Source of the DNA: Spirochaetaceae bacterium
GTDB taxonomy: Bacteria; Spirochaetota; Spirochaetia; PWKH01
Direction: 5' to 3'
DNA length: 40,944 nt
Assembly: GCA_003559765.1 (NCBI GenBank)
Contig: PWKH01000104.1
Span: 1 to 40,944, forward strand
The number at the start of each line of letters is the position of its first letter. Within the stretch, counting starts at the first letter, position 1. The notes beneath the pieces were generated by a model. The model saw only the letters and a program-made list of their open reading frames with translations. It was not told the origin of the DNA and searched no databases. Both the position numbers and the translations under genes were made by a program. This document shows, in pieces, positions 28,342 to 35,668 of this stretch.

Positions 28342-29352
28342 ATGATAAAATTTAACATGGGCAAAAAAAATAGCGCACAAGAAACATCAAGTTCTCCCCA
28401 GCGACTAAAAAGGAAGGATCTGGTCATGGGGGTGCTGTATCATTTCTCTGAAGTATTTGAATCATGTCAGGCAGAGACTATATGGGATATTTCTATTCCT
28501 GCAAAAGATATCAGAAAACAGTTAAAACAGAGCTTGGGAGTCGATTACAAAAGCAATCAATGGGTGTTCACGCAGCTGAGACGCTATGAAGATGAAATTG
28601 GAGCCAAGCTTTTCGAAAAGACCAAGGCTGACGGCGCCGACTCCTTTGATCTCATGCTCCATAGGCATATGATACAGTTCGTGCAGAAACAGCACCTCCA
28701 TGTGCCCCAAAAGATAAAAGTCGCAAATGGAGTGTATGATAAAATTAACAGTGTCAGCGAAACAGCAGACAAAAGATTATCTGTGCTGCTTGGGGCAGGA
28801 AGTACGGCGTATCATATTGCAAATATTTTTTTAGAAAAACACCGGCAGTCACCATGCAGGTTCACCCTTTATACACATAATGCAGGCATTCTGCCGATGC
28901 TTTTTAGTCAGCATATTGATCATCGAAAAATATCTATTGTTACCGCAGGAGGAAAGCTTGAACCCACCACCCAGACAATTCTGGGAAATGCAGATTCCAT
29001 TTTTCCGAAGCAGAACATTGATTTTATTGTTCAGGGAACATCCTTGGTTCACAAAGGGAATCTCTACATAGAATCATCCCAGGAACGGAAGATAAAATCT
29101 GCAATTCTGCATACCTATCAGGGAAAAAAAATTCTTGTGCTCACCAAACATGAATTTCGGGGAGATCCGGCACCGGAGACAGAACCTTACGGCACCATTA
29201 TGGATTATGACTATGTTATTGTGCCGAGATCGGTTCATCGTGAAGCCCAGAAATCCTATGAATTGCTTTTTCTCACCTATGCCCAATATTTTGAACCGGA
29301 AATTCTTAACTGGAACTACAGTATTTTAAAGGTGAAAAAAGCCAATAATTGA
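28342..29352 (+). CDS. DeoR-like transcriptional regulator with unusual N-terminus
   Basis: 336 residues. The C-terminal two thirds fit the DeoR sensor domain: LSVLLGAGSTAYHIANIFLE (about 148-167), FTLYTHNAGILPML, ISIVTAGGKLEPTTQTILG, DFIVQGTSLVHKGNLY and KKILVLTKHEF with the phospho-sugar-binding look of that family. The first 110 residues are not the usual DeoR helix-turn-helix; they contain a winged-helix-like segment (IPAKDIRKQLKQSL, then FTQLRRYEDEIGAKLFEKT). I infer a regulator of the divergent importer operon answering to a phosphorylated sugar or polyol. ATG 28357 is an alternative start. Confidence 0.7.
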   Translation: MIKFNMGKKNSAQETSSSPQRLKRKDLVMGVLYHFSEVFESCQAETIWDISIPAKDIRKQLKQSLGVDYKSNQWVFTQLRRYEDEIGAKLFEKTKADGADSFDLMLHRHMIQFVQKQHLHVPQKIKVANGVYDKINSVSETADKRLSVLLGAGSTAYHIANIFLEKHRQSPCRFTLYTHNAGILPMLFSQHIDHRKISIVTAGGKLEPTTQTILGNADSIFPKQNIDFIVQGTSLVHKGNLYIESSQERKIKSAILHTYQGKKILVLTKHEFRGDPAPETEPYGTIMDYDYVIVPRSVHREAQKSYELLFLTYAQYFEPEILNWNYSILKVKKANN

Positions 29353-29480: not shown

Positions 29481-29510
29481 TTGACACCATATAGTGTTAT
29501 AGATTATTGT
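29481..29510 (+). promoter_or_regulatory. Promoter with overlapping palindrome, upstream of the symporter operon
   Basis: A perfect TTGACA (29481-29486) is followed after 18 bases by the weak hexamer TATTGT (29505-29510). Overlapping the -35 is ACACCATATAGTGT (29484-29497), a palindrome except for one base pair. It looks like a repressor site but is two bases shorter than the NrdR box that it resembles. Confidence 0.5.
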
Positions 29511-29543: not shown

Positions 29544-29762
29544 ATGCGGGAAATTGCTGGCCACTGGCCTGGGAGAATCTTTTTACTTGTTCTTTTGCTT
29601 TCTGTGGTGGTGATGGCGGTTCTGGTCGCCCAGGGCATTACGGAAACAGATGTACTGCTGTTCGGGTGGATGACGATGCCCCTGGTTCTCGGGATAGGAT
29701 TTATCCTCGTGTGGCTTGTCGCCTATCTGATCTACTTTTTCCATTTTTGGCCGTACCGGTAA
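29544..29762 (+). CDS. Small two-helix membrane protein, DUF997/YhdT-like
   Basis: 72 residues with two hydrophobic helices (about 12-31 and 42-66) and an aromatic end (YLIYFFHFWPYR). Small proteins of this kind (YhdT, DUF997) lie next to sodium/solute symporters such as PanF. The ATG at 29544 has GGAGGAG at the right distance. It precedes the symporter gene by 15 bases and is probably its accessory subunit. Family membership is judged from shape and context only. Confidence 0.65.
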   Translation: MREIAGHWPGRIFLLVLLLSVVVMAVLVAQGITETDVLLFGWMTMPLVLGIGFILVWLVAYLIYFFHFWPYR

Positions 29763-29777
29763 AAGAAGGAGTTGCCC

Positions 29778-31307
29778 ATGTTTGATTATATTGCATTGGG
29801 GTTGTTTGGACTAGTAATTATCATGCTTGCTGCTTACGGATACCGGATCTCCGCGAAAACCGCAGAAGATTATATGATGGCCGGAAGAACCATCGGCGTA
29901 GTGGTAATGTTTTTTTTCGTGCTCTTCGCCATCAGTTCAAGCTGGACCTTCTACGGGTTTCCAGGAGTACTCTATCTCCACGGTCCCGGATATGTGTTTT
30001 TCATCTGGGGCTCTGTGGCAGGGTTCGCCTGCCTGTATATGTTCCTCGGACCGAGACTCTGGGCGTTATCTAAGCTTAACCGCTACCTCTCACCCGTTGA
30101 AGTGCTTTCCGAGCGGTATGAATCCCGTGCACTGAGAATTATGCTTTCAGTGACTATACTGGCATTTATTGTACCGTATGTAGGAATTCAGCCTCTGGGA
30201 GTCGGCAGAGGGTTTGAAGCCCTTACCGGGATGCCCCTGTGGGTCGGAGCCGCCTATACATCAGTGCTGCTGGTAATCCTGGTGATCCTCGGCGGCATGC
30301 GTATTGTAGCCTGGGTGAATATCTTCCTGGGAACTGTTTATATCACAGCGCTATTGGGCTCGCTCTTTTGGGCGGTCTCGGTGATATTCCCTGAAGCCGG
30401 TCTGGTGCAGGCAGCCCAGGAAATTGTTGTCATCGATTCGCAGAAGCTTACCACCCCGGGACCGTTAGGTGAATACACCCCGGTCCTGCTCATCGGAACC
30501 TTCGTGGTTGGACTCATGGCGTTCTCATGGCCCCACGTTGTCATCGGTGCTATGACCGCCAGGGACAAGACTCTGTTCAAATGGTTTCCCCTGCTGATCT
30601 TCATCTTCGGCGGACTGTTCTTCTACATCATCCCCTTTATCTGGGGCTCTCTGGTAGCACCGGCTGCACTGCCGGGAATCACCGATCCGGCTGAAGCCGA
30701 CCGGGTAGTCCAGACGGTCATCCAGCTGTATCTGCCGAGGTGGTTCGCCGTGTTCGTGCTGATGGGCGTGATTGCCGCGGCTGTTTCCACTGCCGCTGTC
30801 CAGCTGATGACTTCCAGCATTATCGTCGCCAGGGACCTCATCCAGGGCGTACTGAAGCCGGAGGCAAGCGACCGGGAGATTACTACCATCGCCCGGTATT
30901 CAGTTGCAGGAATTGTGGTGATCTCCCTGGGGGTCACCATCTTCGTGCAGCTCGGCATCGGGGAGGAGGCCATGGCGATGTATCTGACCGATGTGTCAGT
31001 GCCGGGATTCGCCCAGTGGGCCCCCGCTCTGGTCGGCGGACTGCTGTGGAAACGGGGCACCCGGCAGGGAGCACTGGCCGGAACCGGCATCGGGGTGCTG
31101 TATCTGCTTGCAGGACTGCTGATTACCGGCTCCGACGGAACCCGGTTCCTGCTGTTTGATCTGCATCCGGTAGTTCCCACCCTCCCGGTGAACGCCCTGG
31201 TATATGTAGTGGTAAGCCTGCTCACCCCGAAACCGAGTGAGCATATCGAGGATATCTTTTTTACTGAAGTGGAGGATTATCTGCTCAGCGACCGTTCAGC
31301 ACAGTAG
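29778..31307 (+). CDS. Sodium:solute symporter (SSS family)
   Basis: A 509-residue transporter with about 13 membrane helices. The family opening AAYGYRISAKTAEDYMMAGRT, the unwound-helix region AISSSWTFYGFPGVLY, and SPVEVLSERYESRALRI are visible, as is GVIAAAVSTAAVQLMTSSII with the small and hydroxyl residues usual at the sodium site. The closest pattern is the pantothenate/monocarboxylate branch. Context (acyl-CoA synthetase and lipoate-ligase parts downstream) suggests a carboxylate such as a fatty acid, lipoate or a related vitamin. ATG 29778 has AGAAGGA 8 bases upstream. Confidence 0.9.
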   Translation: MFDYIALGLFGLVIIMLAAYGYRISAKTAEDYMMAGRTIGVVVMFFFVLFAISSSWTFYGFPGVLYLHGPGYVFFIWGSVAGFACLYMFLGPRLWALSKLNRYLSPVEVLSERYESRALRIMLSVTILAFIVPYVGIQPLGVGRGFEALTGMPLWVGAAYTSVLLVILVILGGMRIVAWVNIFLGTVYITALLGSLFWAVSVIFPEAGLVQAAQEIVVIDSQKLTTPGPLGEYTPVLLIGTFVVGLMAFSWPHVVIGAMTARDKTLFKWFPLLIFIFGGLFFYIIPFIWGSLVAPAALPGITDPAEADRVVQTVIQLYLPRWFAVFVLMGVIAAAVSTAAVQLMTSSIIVARDLIQGVLKPEASDREITTIARYSVAGIVVISLGVTIFVQLGIGEEAMAMYLTDVSVPGFAQWAPALVGGLLWKRGTRQGALAGTGIGVLYLLAGLLITGSDGTRFLLFDLHPVVPTLPVNALVYVVVSLLTPKPSEHIEDIFFTEVEDYLLSDRSAQ

Positions 31308-31322
31308 AGGAGAGAAGATTGA

Positions 31323-32750
31323 ATGAAACGCAATGAACAGACCTGGAGGCTGCTGGTCAACACCAAGGGACAGGCGGTAGACCTGTATGCCTATCCTTCA
31401 GCGCTGATTGAAGGAAGACTGGCAGGAAAATATATGCTCTCAAAGGAGAAACTTCCTGATACGGTGGTAGTGCAGAGCTTCACCGGCAAGGGGATCCTTG
31501 CGGGAGCGGATGTGGAAATTGACGCATCTGCAGCGAAAAACCTGCAGATGCAGACAGCCAAGATTCCCCGTTCGGGACGGGGCGGACCCAAGGCAGTCGG
31601 CACCTATGACTATGCCGATTTGATTAAACAGGCATCAAAGAAGTTCACCCCGGCAGAACCGGAACTCGATGACCCGGCGGTGCTGCTGTACACCTCCGGG
31701 ACCACCGGAAACCCGAAGGGGGTGATGCTGACTCACCGCAACTTTATCTCTCAGACGGAACTGGTTGACGCCATCATGCCGATGTACAGCAAGGATACCA
31801 TCATCCTGGTGCTGCCGCTGTTCCATGTCTACGGACTTTCCAACGGGCTGGTCTGCGGAACCCGCAACGGCTGCACCATGTCCCTGATTCCCCAGTACAG
31901 CCCGGCAAAGCTTCTTGATACCATCAGTTCATCCTCAGCCACCCTGCTGATAGCCGTGCCCAGCATGTACATGCATCTGCTGCAGCTTGCCCGGGCTCGG
32001 CAGACAAAGATTCCCAAGAGTCTGAGGCTGTGCGTATCAGGGGGCGCTCCCCTGCCGGTGAACACCCTCAACGAGTTTATTGAACTCTTCGACACGCAGA
32101 TCGCCGAGGGATACGGCCTGACTGAAACCACCTCAGCTGTATCGCTGAATAAGACCGGAGAACAGTTCAAAGCGGGATCCATCGGTCCTTCTTCCCCGGG
32201 GATTGAGATGAAGGTAGTGGATGACAGTTTCCAGGAAGTGCCCGACAATACTGAAGGAGAGATTATCATCAGCGGCGGGGTGGTCACCCCGGGCTACTGG
32301 AACAACCGGGAAGCCACCGAAGAAATGATCCGCGACCAGTGGCTGCTGACGGGAGATCTCGGATACCGGGACAGCGAAGGATTTTTCTTCATCACCGACC
32401 GGAAGAAGGACATCATCGTACGGGGTGGGTTCAATATTTCGCCCCGGGAAATTGAAGATGTCCTCGCCGAACACCCTGCGGTTGAGGAATCGGCCATGGT
32501 AGCGGTAACGGACAAACGGGGACGGGAGACCATGAAGGCCTTTGTCGTGCTCAAGGAAGGCAAACAGACCGATGCCTCGGAGCTGCTTCAGCTGTGCCGG
32601 GAGCTGCTGGCTGAATACAAGATTCCAAAGGTGATTGAATTCCGGGAAATCCTGCCTAAGAGTGCGACAGGGAAAATCCTGCGCAAGGAGCTTCGGGATG
32701 AGCAGGGTTCCGACCAGCGGCTTATTCTCAAGGAGGCCCCCAATGAGTGA
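31323..32750 (+). CDS. Chimera 1: lipoate/biotin-ligase-like N-terminus joined to acyl-CoA synthetase C-terminal part
   Basis: 475 residues. Residues 1 to about 92 do not fit an acyl-CoA synthetase; they resemble the opening of the lipoate/biotin protein ligase family (TWRLLVNT, then LPDTVVVQSF, then IPRSGRGGP in the place of the RRxxGGG motif). From about residue 93 (GTYDYADLIKQASKKF) the protein is an AMP-forming acyl-CoA synthetase lacking its N-terminal 130 residues: LLYTSGTTGNPKGVMLTH (122-138), YGLTETT (264-270), TGDLGYRD, DRKKDIIVRGGFNISP and the final catalytic Lys in SATGKILRKEL. The missing N-terminus is present in the next gene. GAGGAGAG precedes the ATG. The stop overlaps the next start by 8 bases. 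Confidence 0.75.
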   Translation: MKRNEQTWRLLVNTKGQAVDLYAYPSALIEGRLAGKYMLSKEKLPDTVVVQSFTGKGILAGADVEIDASAAKNLQMQTAKIPRSGRGGPKAVGTYDYADLIKQASKKFTPAEPELDDPAVLLYTSGTTGNPKGVMLTHRNFISQTELVDAIMPMYSKDTIILVLPLFHVYGLSNGLVCGTRNGCTMSLIPQYSPAKLLDTISSSSATLLIAVPSMYMHLLQLARARQTKIPKSLRLCVSGGAPLPVNTLNEFIELFDTQIAEGYGLTETTSAVSLNKTGEQFKAGSIGPSSPGIEMKVVDDSFQEVPDNTEGEIIISGGVVTPGYWNNREATEEMIRDQWLLTGDLGYRDSEGFFFITDRKKDIIVRGGFNISPREIEDVLAEHPAVEESAMVAVTDKRGRETMKAFVVLKEGKQTDASELLQLCRELLAEYKIPKVIEFREILPKSATGKILRKELRDEQGSDQRLILKEAPNE

Positions 32751-33636
32751 GTTCCGAAATCTTTCACATATGCTCGATACGGTTACAAAGGCCTACAAGC
32801 GCAAGGATGCTCTGTATTTTGAAGGTAAACGCATCTCCTACCGCGAACTGAACGAGCAGGCAAACAAAGCGGCGAACGCCCTTGCCTCCATGGGAATTTC
32901 CAAGGGAGACCGGGTGGCGATGATGCTTCCCAACATTCCTGAATTCGTCTACTGCTTTTTTGGCGTCCAGAAAATCGGGGCAGTTGCCGTACCCTTCAAT
33001 TCGATGTACAAAGGCCGGGAGATCACCTTCATTCTGAATGACAGCCAGTCCAAGGCCCTGATCACCCTCAGCAATTTTGCAAACCTGATCAATGAGATCA
33101 GGGAGGACGTGCCGTCTCTGGAGCATGTCATTCTTACCGGCCAGCGGACCCTGGTCTATGTGACCCCGGAGGCGACGCTCAATCTCCAGATCGTCTGCGG
33201 GAAGAGCAAATTTTCCTCCCCGGAAGAGGCTTTCCGGAAAATCGGTGAGATCTTCGTCGATGTGCTTCAGTCCTACGGCGTAGACGCATGGTATAAACAC
33301 CGGGGCGGAGTGCGGGTCAAGGGGAAAAAGATCGCCACGATCCTCGTCTCGGAAATAGAGAACCTGCTGACGGTCAACGTGGTGCTGTTTCTCGCCCATC
33401 TCGACACCAGGGACCTGTTTAAAGTGGTCTGGGTCACTCCGGAAATAAAGGACAAAGTCCTGGAGCCCTCCACGTCAGTTGAGGAGGAGACCGGCACCAG
33501 ACCGGACACCGGGGAGTTTACCGATGCCCTGATGAAGGTGCTGAAAAACCGCCTGGACATAGAGATCGAACCCGGTTCCATGAAGCGGGATGAACTGTTC
33601 GGATATGAAAAAGTGCTGTCTTTGGCAGTTAAATAG
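32743..33636 (+). CDS. Chimera 2: acyl-CoA synthetase N-terminus joined to lipoate/biotin-ligase-like C-terminal part
   Basis: 297 residues. Residues 1 to about 133 are the N-terminal part of an acyl-CoA synthetase: ISYRELNEQANKAANAL, KGDRVAMMLPNIPEF, AVPFNSMYKGREITFILND and LEHVILTG. The nucleotide-binding P-loop that should follow is absent. From about 134 (QRTLVYVTPEATLNL) the sequence resembles the rest of a lipoate/biotin protein ligase: FRKIGEIFVDVLQSYGV, then RVKGKKIATILV (192-203) in the place of the catalytic lysine motif, then LEPSTSVEEETG and the helix ending KRDELFGYEKVL. Together with gene 31323 the parts give one synthetase of about 515 and one ligase of about 255 residues. Read directly coupled to chimera 1. 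Confidence 0.75.
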   Translation: MSEFRNLSHMLDTVTKAYKRKDALYFEGKRISYRELNEQANKAANALASMGISKGDRVAMMLPNIPEFVYCFFGVQKIGAVAVPFNSMYKGREITFILNDSQSKALITLSNFANLINEIREDVPSLEHVILTGQRTLVYVTPEATLNLQIVCGKSKFSSPEEAFRKIGEIFVDVLQSYGVDAWYKHRGGVRVKGKKIATILVSEIENLLTVNVVLFLAHLDTRDLFKVVWVTPEIKDKVLEPSTSVEEETGTRPDTGEFTDALMKVLKNRLDIEIEPGSMKRDELFGYEKVLSLAVK

Positions 33637-33643
33637 CTCAATA

Positions 33644-33670
33644 GAAGGCCGGCAGATTCTGCCGGCCTTC
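33644..33670 (+). terminator. Hairpin closing the symporter/chimera operon
   Basis: GAAGGCCGGCA-GATTC-TGCCGGCCTTC is a perfect 11-base-pair stem with a 5-base loop, 7 bases after the chimera 2 stop. No clear T-run follows (ATTCGGGT), so termination may be partial or factor-assisted, but the place and strength fit an operon end. Confidence 0.6.
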
Positions 33671-33743
33671 ATTCGGGTAAATACTCATTGCACACCCCTT
33701 TGTTTTGTGATTCAATAACGTAAATGAGTTGCAGGAGCAGGAC

Positions 33744-34892
33744 ATGGACATATCCGGTCGGTGCATCGGCACCGCCCAGGTAACAAAAATTACCGTATCA
33801 GATGGGATCATCACTGAGACTTCGCCGTCGGCGGAAAACCCGTCTCTCTGGGTGCTCCCCGGTTTTCTGGATCTTCAGGTCAACGGATACCGAGGATTTG
33901 ACTATACTGCAGGGAAAATAACCCCCGAAGCCATGATCCGGCTGGTCAGAGCCTTGGCTGAAGGCGGAACCACCAGACATGCCCCTACCCTGGTGAGCGC
34001 CGGCAGAACGCAGATTGTGACCCAGCTGAAGGCGATAGACGATGCATGCAGCAGTTCTTCCCTGCTCTTTCGTGCTGTCCCGCTGATCCATATGGAGGGT
34101 CCCTATATTGCCCATGCTGCAGGAGCCCGGGGCGCCCATGCTCCTGATCAGGTGAGAGACCCTGACCCTGAGGAGTACCTCCAGTGGCAGGAGGCCAGCG
34201 GAAACCGGATCGGGATCATCACGCTGGCGCCGGAGCGGCCCGGAGCGCTTGAGTTTATTGAGGCGGTAAGCGCCGACGGTGTGATTCCTGCGATCGGACA
34301 TACTGAGGCAGACCGGGGACTGATTCGGGAAGCCGTGCAGGCCGGAGCCAGGCTTTCAGCTCATCTGGGCAACGGCATGGCCGAACAGGTGCACCGTCAT
34401 GCAAACCCGCTGATCAGTCAGCTTGCCTGTGAGGCCCTCTGGGCCTCGGTAATCAGTGACGGAGAACATCTGCCCGAGGATCTGCTGAACATTATCTATG
34501 CAGTCAAAGGGTACAGGCGGATGGTGCTTGTCAGCGACGTCATCCCGTCAGCAGGACTGGCTCCGGGAAGACACAACTGGAACGGAACCGAAGTAACTGT
34601 TGAGGAGAGCGGGCGCATCACCCTTCCGGGATCCGGACTGCTTGCCGGCGCCTCCAGCCTCCTTTCCCGCAGCATCTCCCATATAATGCAGTCAGCGGGG
34701 ACATCCCTGGAGGAAGCTGTCACTATGTGCACGGTCAATCCCGCCGCACTTACCGGGCTGTCGGCGGTATCCCTGATTCCCCGGACAGGTGAAGCGGCGA
34801 ATATTGTCCTGTGCAGAGCAAACGGATCCCTTGTCCCTGCAGCGGCCATTTTGGCAGATGAAATCCTGTTTTCACAACTGGAGGAGCTATGA
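33744..34892 (+). CDS. nagA: N-acetylglucosamine-6-phosphate deacetylase-like amidohydrolase
   Basis: 382 residues, metal-dependent amidohydrolase of the NagA family, which deacetylates GlcNAc-6-phosphate. Motifs are VLPGFLDLQVNGYRGFDYT (NagA-type QxN rather than HxH), PLIHMEGPYIA with the metal Glu, AIGHTEADRGL, RLSAHLGNGM, VISDGEHLP and LVSDVIPSAGL with the catalytic Asp. The last motifs differ a little from E. coli NagA (HLGNG for HLFNA, SDGEH for ADGHH). ATG 33744 has GCAGGAG upstream; an in-frame TTG at 33729 is less likely. It overlaps nagB by ATGA. Confidence 0.85.
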   Translation: MDISGRCIGTAQVTKITVSDGIITETSPSAENPSLWVLPGFLDLQVNGYRGFDYTAGKITPEAMIRLVRALAEGGTTRHAPTLVSAGRTQIVTQLKAIDDACSSSSLLFRAVPLIHMEGPYIAHAAGARGAHAPDQVRDPDPEEYLQWQEASGNRIGIITLAPERPGALEFIEAVSADGVIPAIGHTEADRGLIREAVQAGARLSAHLGNGMAEQVHRHANPLISQLACEALWASVISDGEHLPEDLLNIIYAVKGYRRMVLVSDVIPSAGLAPGRHNWNGTEVTVEESGRITLPGSGLLAGASSLLSRSISHIMQSAGTSLEEAVTMCTVNPAALTGLSAVSLIPRTGEAANIVLCRANGSLVPAAAILADEILFSQLEEL

Positions 34893-35668
34893 ACATGAAA
34901 ATTGATTCCCTGGAAGTTTCTGTTTTTGAGCAGAGGGATGAACTGGGAAAACTTGCAGCGGGAAGAGCGGCTGCGGTCATTGAGGATACGGTGGAGCGTA
35001 AGGGCCACGCGGCGGTAATGTTTGCCTCAGCTGCCTCGCAGATTGAATTCATCCGGAATCTGCTGAAACACCAGCTTCCCTGGAGACGGATTACTGCATT
35101 CCATATGGACGAATACATCGGCCTCTCCTCCGGGGATCCGCGGAGTTTCGGAGCATTTCTCCGGCGGGAGCTGTTTTCTCTTCAGTCCTTCGGTTCTGTC
35201 CACTATATCGCATCACTGGAATCCGATCCGGAACAGGCCTGCAGCGATTACGAGAATCTCCTGCTTTCCCAGAAGCTTGATCTTGTGTGCATGGGGATCG
35301 GTGAAAACGGTCATATTGCCTTTAACGATCCTCCGGAAGCCAGGTTTGATGACCCTCGGCTGGTGCGCATCGTCACCCTCGAGGAACGCTGCAGAATGCA
35401 GCAGGTGCATGACGGCTGCTTTTCAGATATCTTGGAGGTTCCCCGGCAGGCTGTAACCATTACGATTCCTGCTCTGATGTCTGCAGACCACATTCTGTGC
35501 ATGGTTCCCGGATCTGCAAAAGCCGAGGCGGTCTTTACCATGCTCACCGGCCCGGTTGAATCTTCCTGTCCTGCTTCAGTGCTGAGGACGCATCCCGGGG
35601 CATCATTGTTTCTCGACCTTGACAGCGCTGAGCTGTTTCTCAAATCCCGGGAGACGCGGGATGACTAG
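34889..35668 (+). CDS. nagB: Glucosamine-6-phosphate deaminase-like protein
   Basis: A 259-residue sugar-phosphate isomerase/deaminase converting glucosamine-6-phosphate to fructose-6-phosphate. Motifs are ITAFHMDEYIGLSSGDPRSF (about 69-88), LDLVCMGIGENGHIAFNDPP (about 129-148) with the catalytic His and Glu region, and the C-terminal ILCMVPGSAKAEAV. GGAGG lies just before the ATG. It overlaps nagA and the hydrolase, so the three are one unit for amino-sugar use. Confidence 0.85.
   Translation: MNMKIDSLEVSVFEQRDELGKLAAGRAAAVIEDTVERKGHAAVMFASAASQIEFIRNLLKHQLPWRRITAFHMDEYIGLSSGDPRSFGAFLRRELFSLQSFGSVHYIASLESDPEQACSDYENLLLSQKLDLVCMGIGENGHIAFNDPPEARFDDPRLVRIVTLEERCRMQQVHDGCFSDILEVPRQAVTITIPALMSADHILCMVPGSAKAEAVFTMLTGPVESSCPASVLRTHPGASLFLDLDSAELFLKSRETRDD

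Follow-up and report, generated by a model that had tools for sequence, protein, structure and literature searches.

In mammals, lipoate is activated by a synthetase of the ACSM type. The C-terminal domain of the lipoate ligase LplA is reported to be necessary for adenylation, and LIPT1, whose C-terminal domain differs, is described as transferring lipoyl-AMP while being unable to make it (PMC7253636; PMC12157495). A Mycoplasma LplA was reported to need only its N-terminal domain for activity (PMC7186572). Here we describe a spirochaete operon in which parts of a synthetase and of an LplA-type ligase are divided between two adjacent genes.

Organization of the operon

Four open reading frames on the same strand, genes A, B, C and D, occupy positions 29544-33636 of the window (the whole 40,944-nucleotide stretch of DNA that was analysed) and are separated by 15, 15 and -8 bases, in agreement with the original prediction. 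Gene A (29544-29762, +), an open reading frame preceded by AGGAG, encodes a 72-aa small protein that appears membrane-type from its hydrophobic sequence. Its homologues (72-77 aa) lie directly upstream of gene B wherever the contig permits. Gene A had been called DUF997-like, but searches of Pfam and NCBIfam gave no family match, DUF997 included. Gene B (29778-31307, +) had been recognized as a sodium/solute symporter, and its SSF match (PF00474, E 3.9e-30) confirmed this. Scores against the PutP and PanF models (123 and 120 bits) were far under their cut-offs (for PanF, 119.6 bits vs 328). The PDB returned weak matches only, to a choline transporter (3.4e-05) and a multivitamin transporter (9.3e-04), and these are uninformative on the solute. 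Among 296 spirochaete genomes, close homologues of gene B (68-100% identity) occurred in exactly the 9 genomes that carry C and D and were absent from the remaining 287; distant relatives at 28-29% identity were present in four more.

The one promoter that had been postulated corresponds to a promoter-like site (TTGACA-18-TATTGT, 29481-29510, +) upstream of gene A that agrees with the consensus at 10 of 12 positions. This is a consensus match only and no evidence of function; the scan found 8 such sites in the region vs 3.1 expected by chance. The hairpin 3' of the operon (33644-33670, +) is strong, as had been proposed, with a 12-bp stem and a folding energy of -28.5 kcal/mol (z -6.15; 0/200 shuffles as stable), but it has no T-run and was absent from the terminator scan output, so that as a terminator it is an unproven candidate. 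Just 5' of the operon, the product of positions 28342-29352 (+) has a weak match to the DeoR-type sensor domain (PF00455, 31.9 bits vs a cut-off of 31.8); the gene does not accompany the operon at the other loci compared. The 3' genes (33729-35668, +) look by eye like an N-acetylglucosamine-6-phosphate deacetylase and a glucosamine-6-phosphate deaminase and seem to have no relation to the operon. At the window start (1-1520, +) a second acyl-CoA-synthetase gene is broken, its reading shifting between two frames at about 540-870, which reflects either a sequencing error or a pseudogene.

Synthetase and ligase halves in genes C and D

Pfam searches, supplemented for C by profile comparison, placed parts of an acyl-CoA synthetase (A) and of an LplA-type ligase (L) in both gene C (31323-32750, +) and gene D (32743-33636, +). 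The original prediction had listed synthetase parts and lipoate-ligase parts, which is literally right by Pfam, but it had missed the reciprocal exchange of the halves. The second part of C (A_C, 31605-32750, +) is the C-terminal part of the synthetase and covers positions 151-384 of the AMP-binding profile (PF00501) and 1-76 of the C-domain (PF13193), while aa 1-134 of D (A_N, 32743-33144, +) are its N-terminal part and cover PF00501 positions 5-123. C by itself is missing the synthetase start and D by itself the synthetase end, and the domain complement (full AMP-binding plus PF13193) is complete only once the two halves are joined. Rejoining A_N and A_C gave a single PF00501 match from 5 to 384 with 334.8 bits, vs 110.5 and 214.9 for the separate parts. 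Against FadD13 (3r44) the rejoined A aligned from 29 to 501 (E 2.8e-83) with zero gap at the join, the cut falling in the loop before the P-loop strand. The A_C region keeps YTSGTTG-PKG, GYG-TE, TGD, DRKKD and PK-ATGK, and the P-loop, GYG-TE, D345, D359, R360, D363, K446 and K451 were invariant in 29/29 C rows. The tested residues represent the ANL core motifs A3, A5, A7, A8 and A10.

The ligase is divided in the same manner. Pfam recognized the LplA catalytic domain (LplA-B_cat, PF21948) only from position 73 to 199, in the second part of D (L_C, 33145-33636, +; E 4.8e-09), and the ligase start was absent from D. The first 94 aa of C (L_N, 31323-31604, +) were not recognized by Pfam and were assigned as the N-terminal ligase half by hhalign against a reference profile of 15 LplA-type proteins from the spirochaete genomes compared. 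L_N alone scored 22.5 against this profile, and none of 200 column shuffles scored as well (mean 13.1, max 21.6). Joined L_N+L_C, aligned globally over 1-256, scored 69.4 (E 7.8e-13), a value reached by 0/200 controls in which only the L_N columns were shuffled (mean 41.1, max 58.1). A PDB search with the L profile returned no chain at E up to 1. The ligase is cut at its glycine loop, which is variable in L. Invariant residues are present on both proteins: K196, H186, G188 and R191 of L_C (29/29 D rows), the junction residues G133, R135 and T136 (29 D rows), and R83 and G85 of the ligase-type loop (29 C rows). D-K196 corresponds to the lysine of the LplA GRK-(V/I)-SG motif. With invariant R83/G85 on C and K196 on D, the ligase site would combine residues of both proteins. 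L is without the asparagine-aspartate ('ND') motif that precedes the lysine in ordinary ligases of the same genomes, and its chemistry may therefore differ from that of an ordinary ligase. The rejoined L is 257 aa long and stops about 30 residues past the catalytic-domain match; Pfam did not find Lip_prot_lig_C in it, whereas 2 of the 5 intact LplAs examined from these genomes do show this domain. Judged by its sequence, L is very divergent from LplA.

Structure models were made as single chains, with C and D folded separately. In the D model (pLDDT 76.8) residues 1-133 matched synthetase N-domains (e.g. 3r44, with Z 15.2 and 2.4 A for 133 residues), whereas biotin protein ligases were matched by residues 133-274 (3efr_A, with Z 14.0 and 3.2 A for 129 residues). 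The model of C (pLDDT 68.2) took a synthetase fold with a poor L_N part (pLDDT 36-72), and several of its alignments begin at residues 4-6, laying part of L_N over the synthetase N-terminus. Alignments of this kind to whole synthetases (e.g. MenE 5x8f_D, Z 27.4, 381 aligned, rmsd 5.2), together with the presence of all core ATP motifs in C, would suit a C protein that is a working synthetase alone, with L_N replacing the usual N-terminal part and D acting as a regulatory or scaffold protein. We consider this quite improbable, since in a separate comparison of profiles L_N resembled LplA (21.5) and not A_N (11.3), and since the missing synthetase part is intact in D, joins A_C seamlessly and is the best-conserved of the four segments (mean identity 0.68).

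Taken together, the split Pfam matches, the seamless join of A and the likeness of L_N to LplA establish at the sequence level that C (L_N-A_C) and D (A_N-L_C) are the two products of a reciprocal exchange between a synthetase gene and an LplA-type ligase gene. The four termini of C and D correspond to the natural termini of both parent enzymes. A split-intein pair (fractured gene) was rejected, as no intein family appeared in Pfam scans of C, D or their pieces and the junction partners are LplA-type. C and D as one fused or frameshifted chain was ruled out by the C/D gap, which ranged from -8 to +59 in the first loci and was about +160 in loci L098 and L099.

Contiguous L_N+L_C, as an intact L ancestor would have it, was not found in the 296 spirochaete genomes (E cut-off 1e-10). 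The Pfam search offered two candidates, G123:C22 and G074:C244, which by eye were biotin-ligase-type proteins. The 348 genomes of the Bacillus phylum gave 7 weak L matches, all to the L_C part only, and the 6 of these that were examined (not G691) were LplA-type proteins without a synthetase. Within the Fulvivirga phylum 0/395 genomes had an L match in a search that had no positive control. Only ordinary synthetases were seen among the best 5 of 133 matching plasmid records. The nearest L_C relatives found outside the spirochaetes come from the Bacillus phylum (L130-L134) and are LplA-type proteins about 360-530 aa long. At one of these loci (L130) the 836-aa frame of the LplA-type protein also contains a lipoyl-synthase-like part, and by eye several of them adjoin E2-type genes.

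Conservation and distribution of the four-gene unit

A scan of 84,980 species genomes yielded 38 loci, comprising 26 D-type chimeras (L037-L062) and 12 ordinary synthetase starts only. Spirochaete labels were attached to 24 of the 26; the other two were labelled Latescibacterota (L039) and Clostridiales (L056), probably through misbinning, and L039 falls within the spirochaete tree. Two contigs of MAG SLTF01 (L042 and L060) each hold a D gene, one whole near the contig start and the other cut by the contig end, and are possibly two copies or strain variants.

With 10 others, two of which are pieces of the N-interrupted genome G062, the 26 loci make up 36 further loci. The junction could be read in 32 for C, in 33 for D and in 30 for both, the remaining 6 being cut by contig ends or N-runs. 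Wherever both junctions were readable (30/36) the synthetase halves lay in separate polypeptides, and no unswapped C/D arrangement was present among the 36. The halves in G062 had seemed far apart, an appearance dismissed because both places are cut by N-runs in a scaffolded genome. L halves are carried by 9 of the 296 spirochaete genomes and are always cut at the same point; in G116 only L_N was matched in this search, and there the contig ends inside D. Carriers include G029 and G049, which are single-contig, 99%-complete genomes.

The expectation that the same four genes would be found elsewhere was borne out, with the A-B-C-D order complete in 26 of the 36 further loci. The ten incomplete loci consist of seven contig-end cuts, one stretch too short for A and B (L014) and the two pieces of one N-cut genome. 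Genes beside the operon vary between loci, and because the flanks are not conserved the unit is exactly A, B, C and D. No conserved neighbour fit for a carrier protein or regulator was seen across loci, and no carrier protein lies within the unit. The four-gene unit is real, its content, order and strand being conserved far beyond chance.

Selection was examined in the 16 pairs with usable synonymous divergence from all pairs of loci in which both genes were readable. The dN/dS values for L_N, A_C, A_N and L_C were 0.007-0.43 (one L_N value was not computable), and each of these segments is under purifying selection. Their pairwise identities correlate with one another (r 0.82-0.88, 20 loci), and the C and D trees (25 rows each) share the same deepest split, of 8 vs 17 rows, with support 100/100. 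These data bear on the suggestion that C and D are an assembly artefact or decaying pseudogenes, in favour of which it can be said that the window comes from a MAG of 189 contigs and that L062 has an in-frame stop within C, itself a sequencing error or a decayed copy. The same junctions recur in 30 loci, also in two single-contig genomes, and dN/dS is low, which leaves this a negligible chance; for the family, the artefact reading is already refuted by the conserved junctions.

The L halves might instead be a mere dimerisation clamp for the synthetase halves, without catalysis, the product being acyl-CoA. The lost 'ND' motif and variable glycine loop of L agree with such a role, as do the intact synthetase motifs, but the invariance of D-K196, H186, G188 and R191 and of C-R83 and G85 speaks against it, as does purifying selection on both L halves. 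We regard a clamp as doubtful, though the most serious of the alternatives.

Proposed function

As a statement of gene content, the proposal that uptake, adenylation and ligase-type transfer share one operon was supported. The original prediction took these as a salvage route in which lipoate or octanoate is taken up, activated and transferred, and an operon that combines an LplA-type fold with a synthetase and a sodium symporter is compatible with it, as are GcvH and lipoyl/biotinyl-domain proteins in the genome. However, each of the 13 carriers tested, and likewise each of 3 non-carriers, had GcvH, a match to LipA and one or more additional genes of the LplA/LipB type (in G000 LipA was matched only in part and below cut-off). 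Proteins with biotin/lipoyl domains were present in 8/8 genomes searched, 6 of them carriers. Since carriers own LipA, GcvH and further ligases, a dedicated lipoate route is not needed and the genomes are not dependent on the operon for lipoylation. Absence of LipA and LipB had been put forward as a check, and the presence of GcvH, LipA matches and further ligase genes supplies one part of the evidence named as counting against salvage; the far divergence of L from LplA also weighs against it. Lipoate is thus unlikely to be the substrate or purpose, and another acid is likelier.

Our best reading, which we hold to be probable, is that C and D interlock as a heterodimer, restoring a synthetase and a half-ligase capable of transfer only, and that this heterodimer converts an imported carboxylic acid to an acyl-adenylate and then to a modification on a protein lysine. 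We infer the pairing, both activities, the order of the steps and the acceptor as follows. C and D would most likely co-fold as an obligate heterodimer, with A_N+A_C forming the synthetase and L_N+L_C the ligase domain, and the rebuilt enzymes would be covalently cross-linked through one loop of each. Motifs and gene linkage suggest that symporter B with its small partner A imports a carboxylic acid, which the rebuilt synthetase would turn into an acyl-adenylate. The rebuilt ligase domain, with a composite site formed by an RxG motif on C and the lysine on D, would receive the acyl group in activated form from its partner and hand it on to a carrier-protein lysine. A transfer-only role is proposed because L is without the C-terminal domain on which LplA relies for adenylation; given the reported activity of one LplA without that domain (PMC7186572), its absence is no proof of a half-ligase. 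In the fullest form of the proposal the pair would be obligate and interlocked, its active sites would be directly coupled, a dedicated sodium symporter would feed it, and it would attach to spirochaete proteins a carboxylic acid that is not a known protein modification. This form is tentative and in our judgement has clearly less than an even chance of being correct.

If C and D do pair, neither enzyme exists without the other, and the topology enforces 1:1 stoichiometry and co-assembly and possibly also the hand-over of the unstable acyl-adenylate. The pair is a natural test case for the origin and survival of reciprocal fusions, and the operon points to novel protein acylation in spirochaetes.

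Comparison with known systems

Paired proteins that each hold half of two enzymes were not described in the literature searched (limited, open-access), and we know of no precedent for two unrelated enzymes having swapped halves in a conserved gene pair. The rejoined A resembles fatty-acyl-CoA synthetases of the FadD13/PRK06187 type (ANL superfamily) in having both domains and all tested motif residues; unlike them, it is cut before the P-loop strand, its halves lie in two proteins and the gene order is reversed. L resembles LplA (PF21948) in that L_C matches the catalytic domain at 73-199 and the rejoined protein aligns end to end, whereas it is divided at the glycine loop between two proteins, lacks the C-terminal domain and has divergent motifs. 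Interrupted NRPS adenylation domains (e.g. 5wmm) likewise have a foreign domain inside an adenylating enzyme, but there one chain holds both, while in C/D the inserted domain is itself cut and its ends are the ends of two proteins.

The mammalian ACSM and LIPT1 pair is like C/D as proposed, in that adenylation falls to an enzyme of the synthetase family and transfer to an LplA relative that cannot itself activate (for LIPT1, PMC7253636). The comparison with these two enzymes made in the original prediction is apt as chemistry, L having the half-ligase shape without the C-terminal domain. ACSM and LIPT1 are, however, two separate whole proteins, whereas each C/D polypeptide holds half of both enzymes, a symporter is included in the operon and the substrate is probably not lipoate. 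What is new in C/D is the architecture; adenylation and lysine-transfer chemistry and the parental superfamilies are of known kinds.
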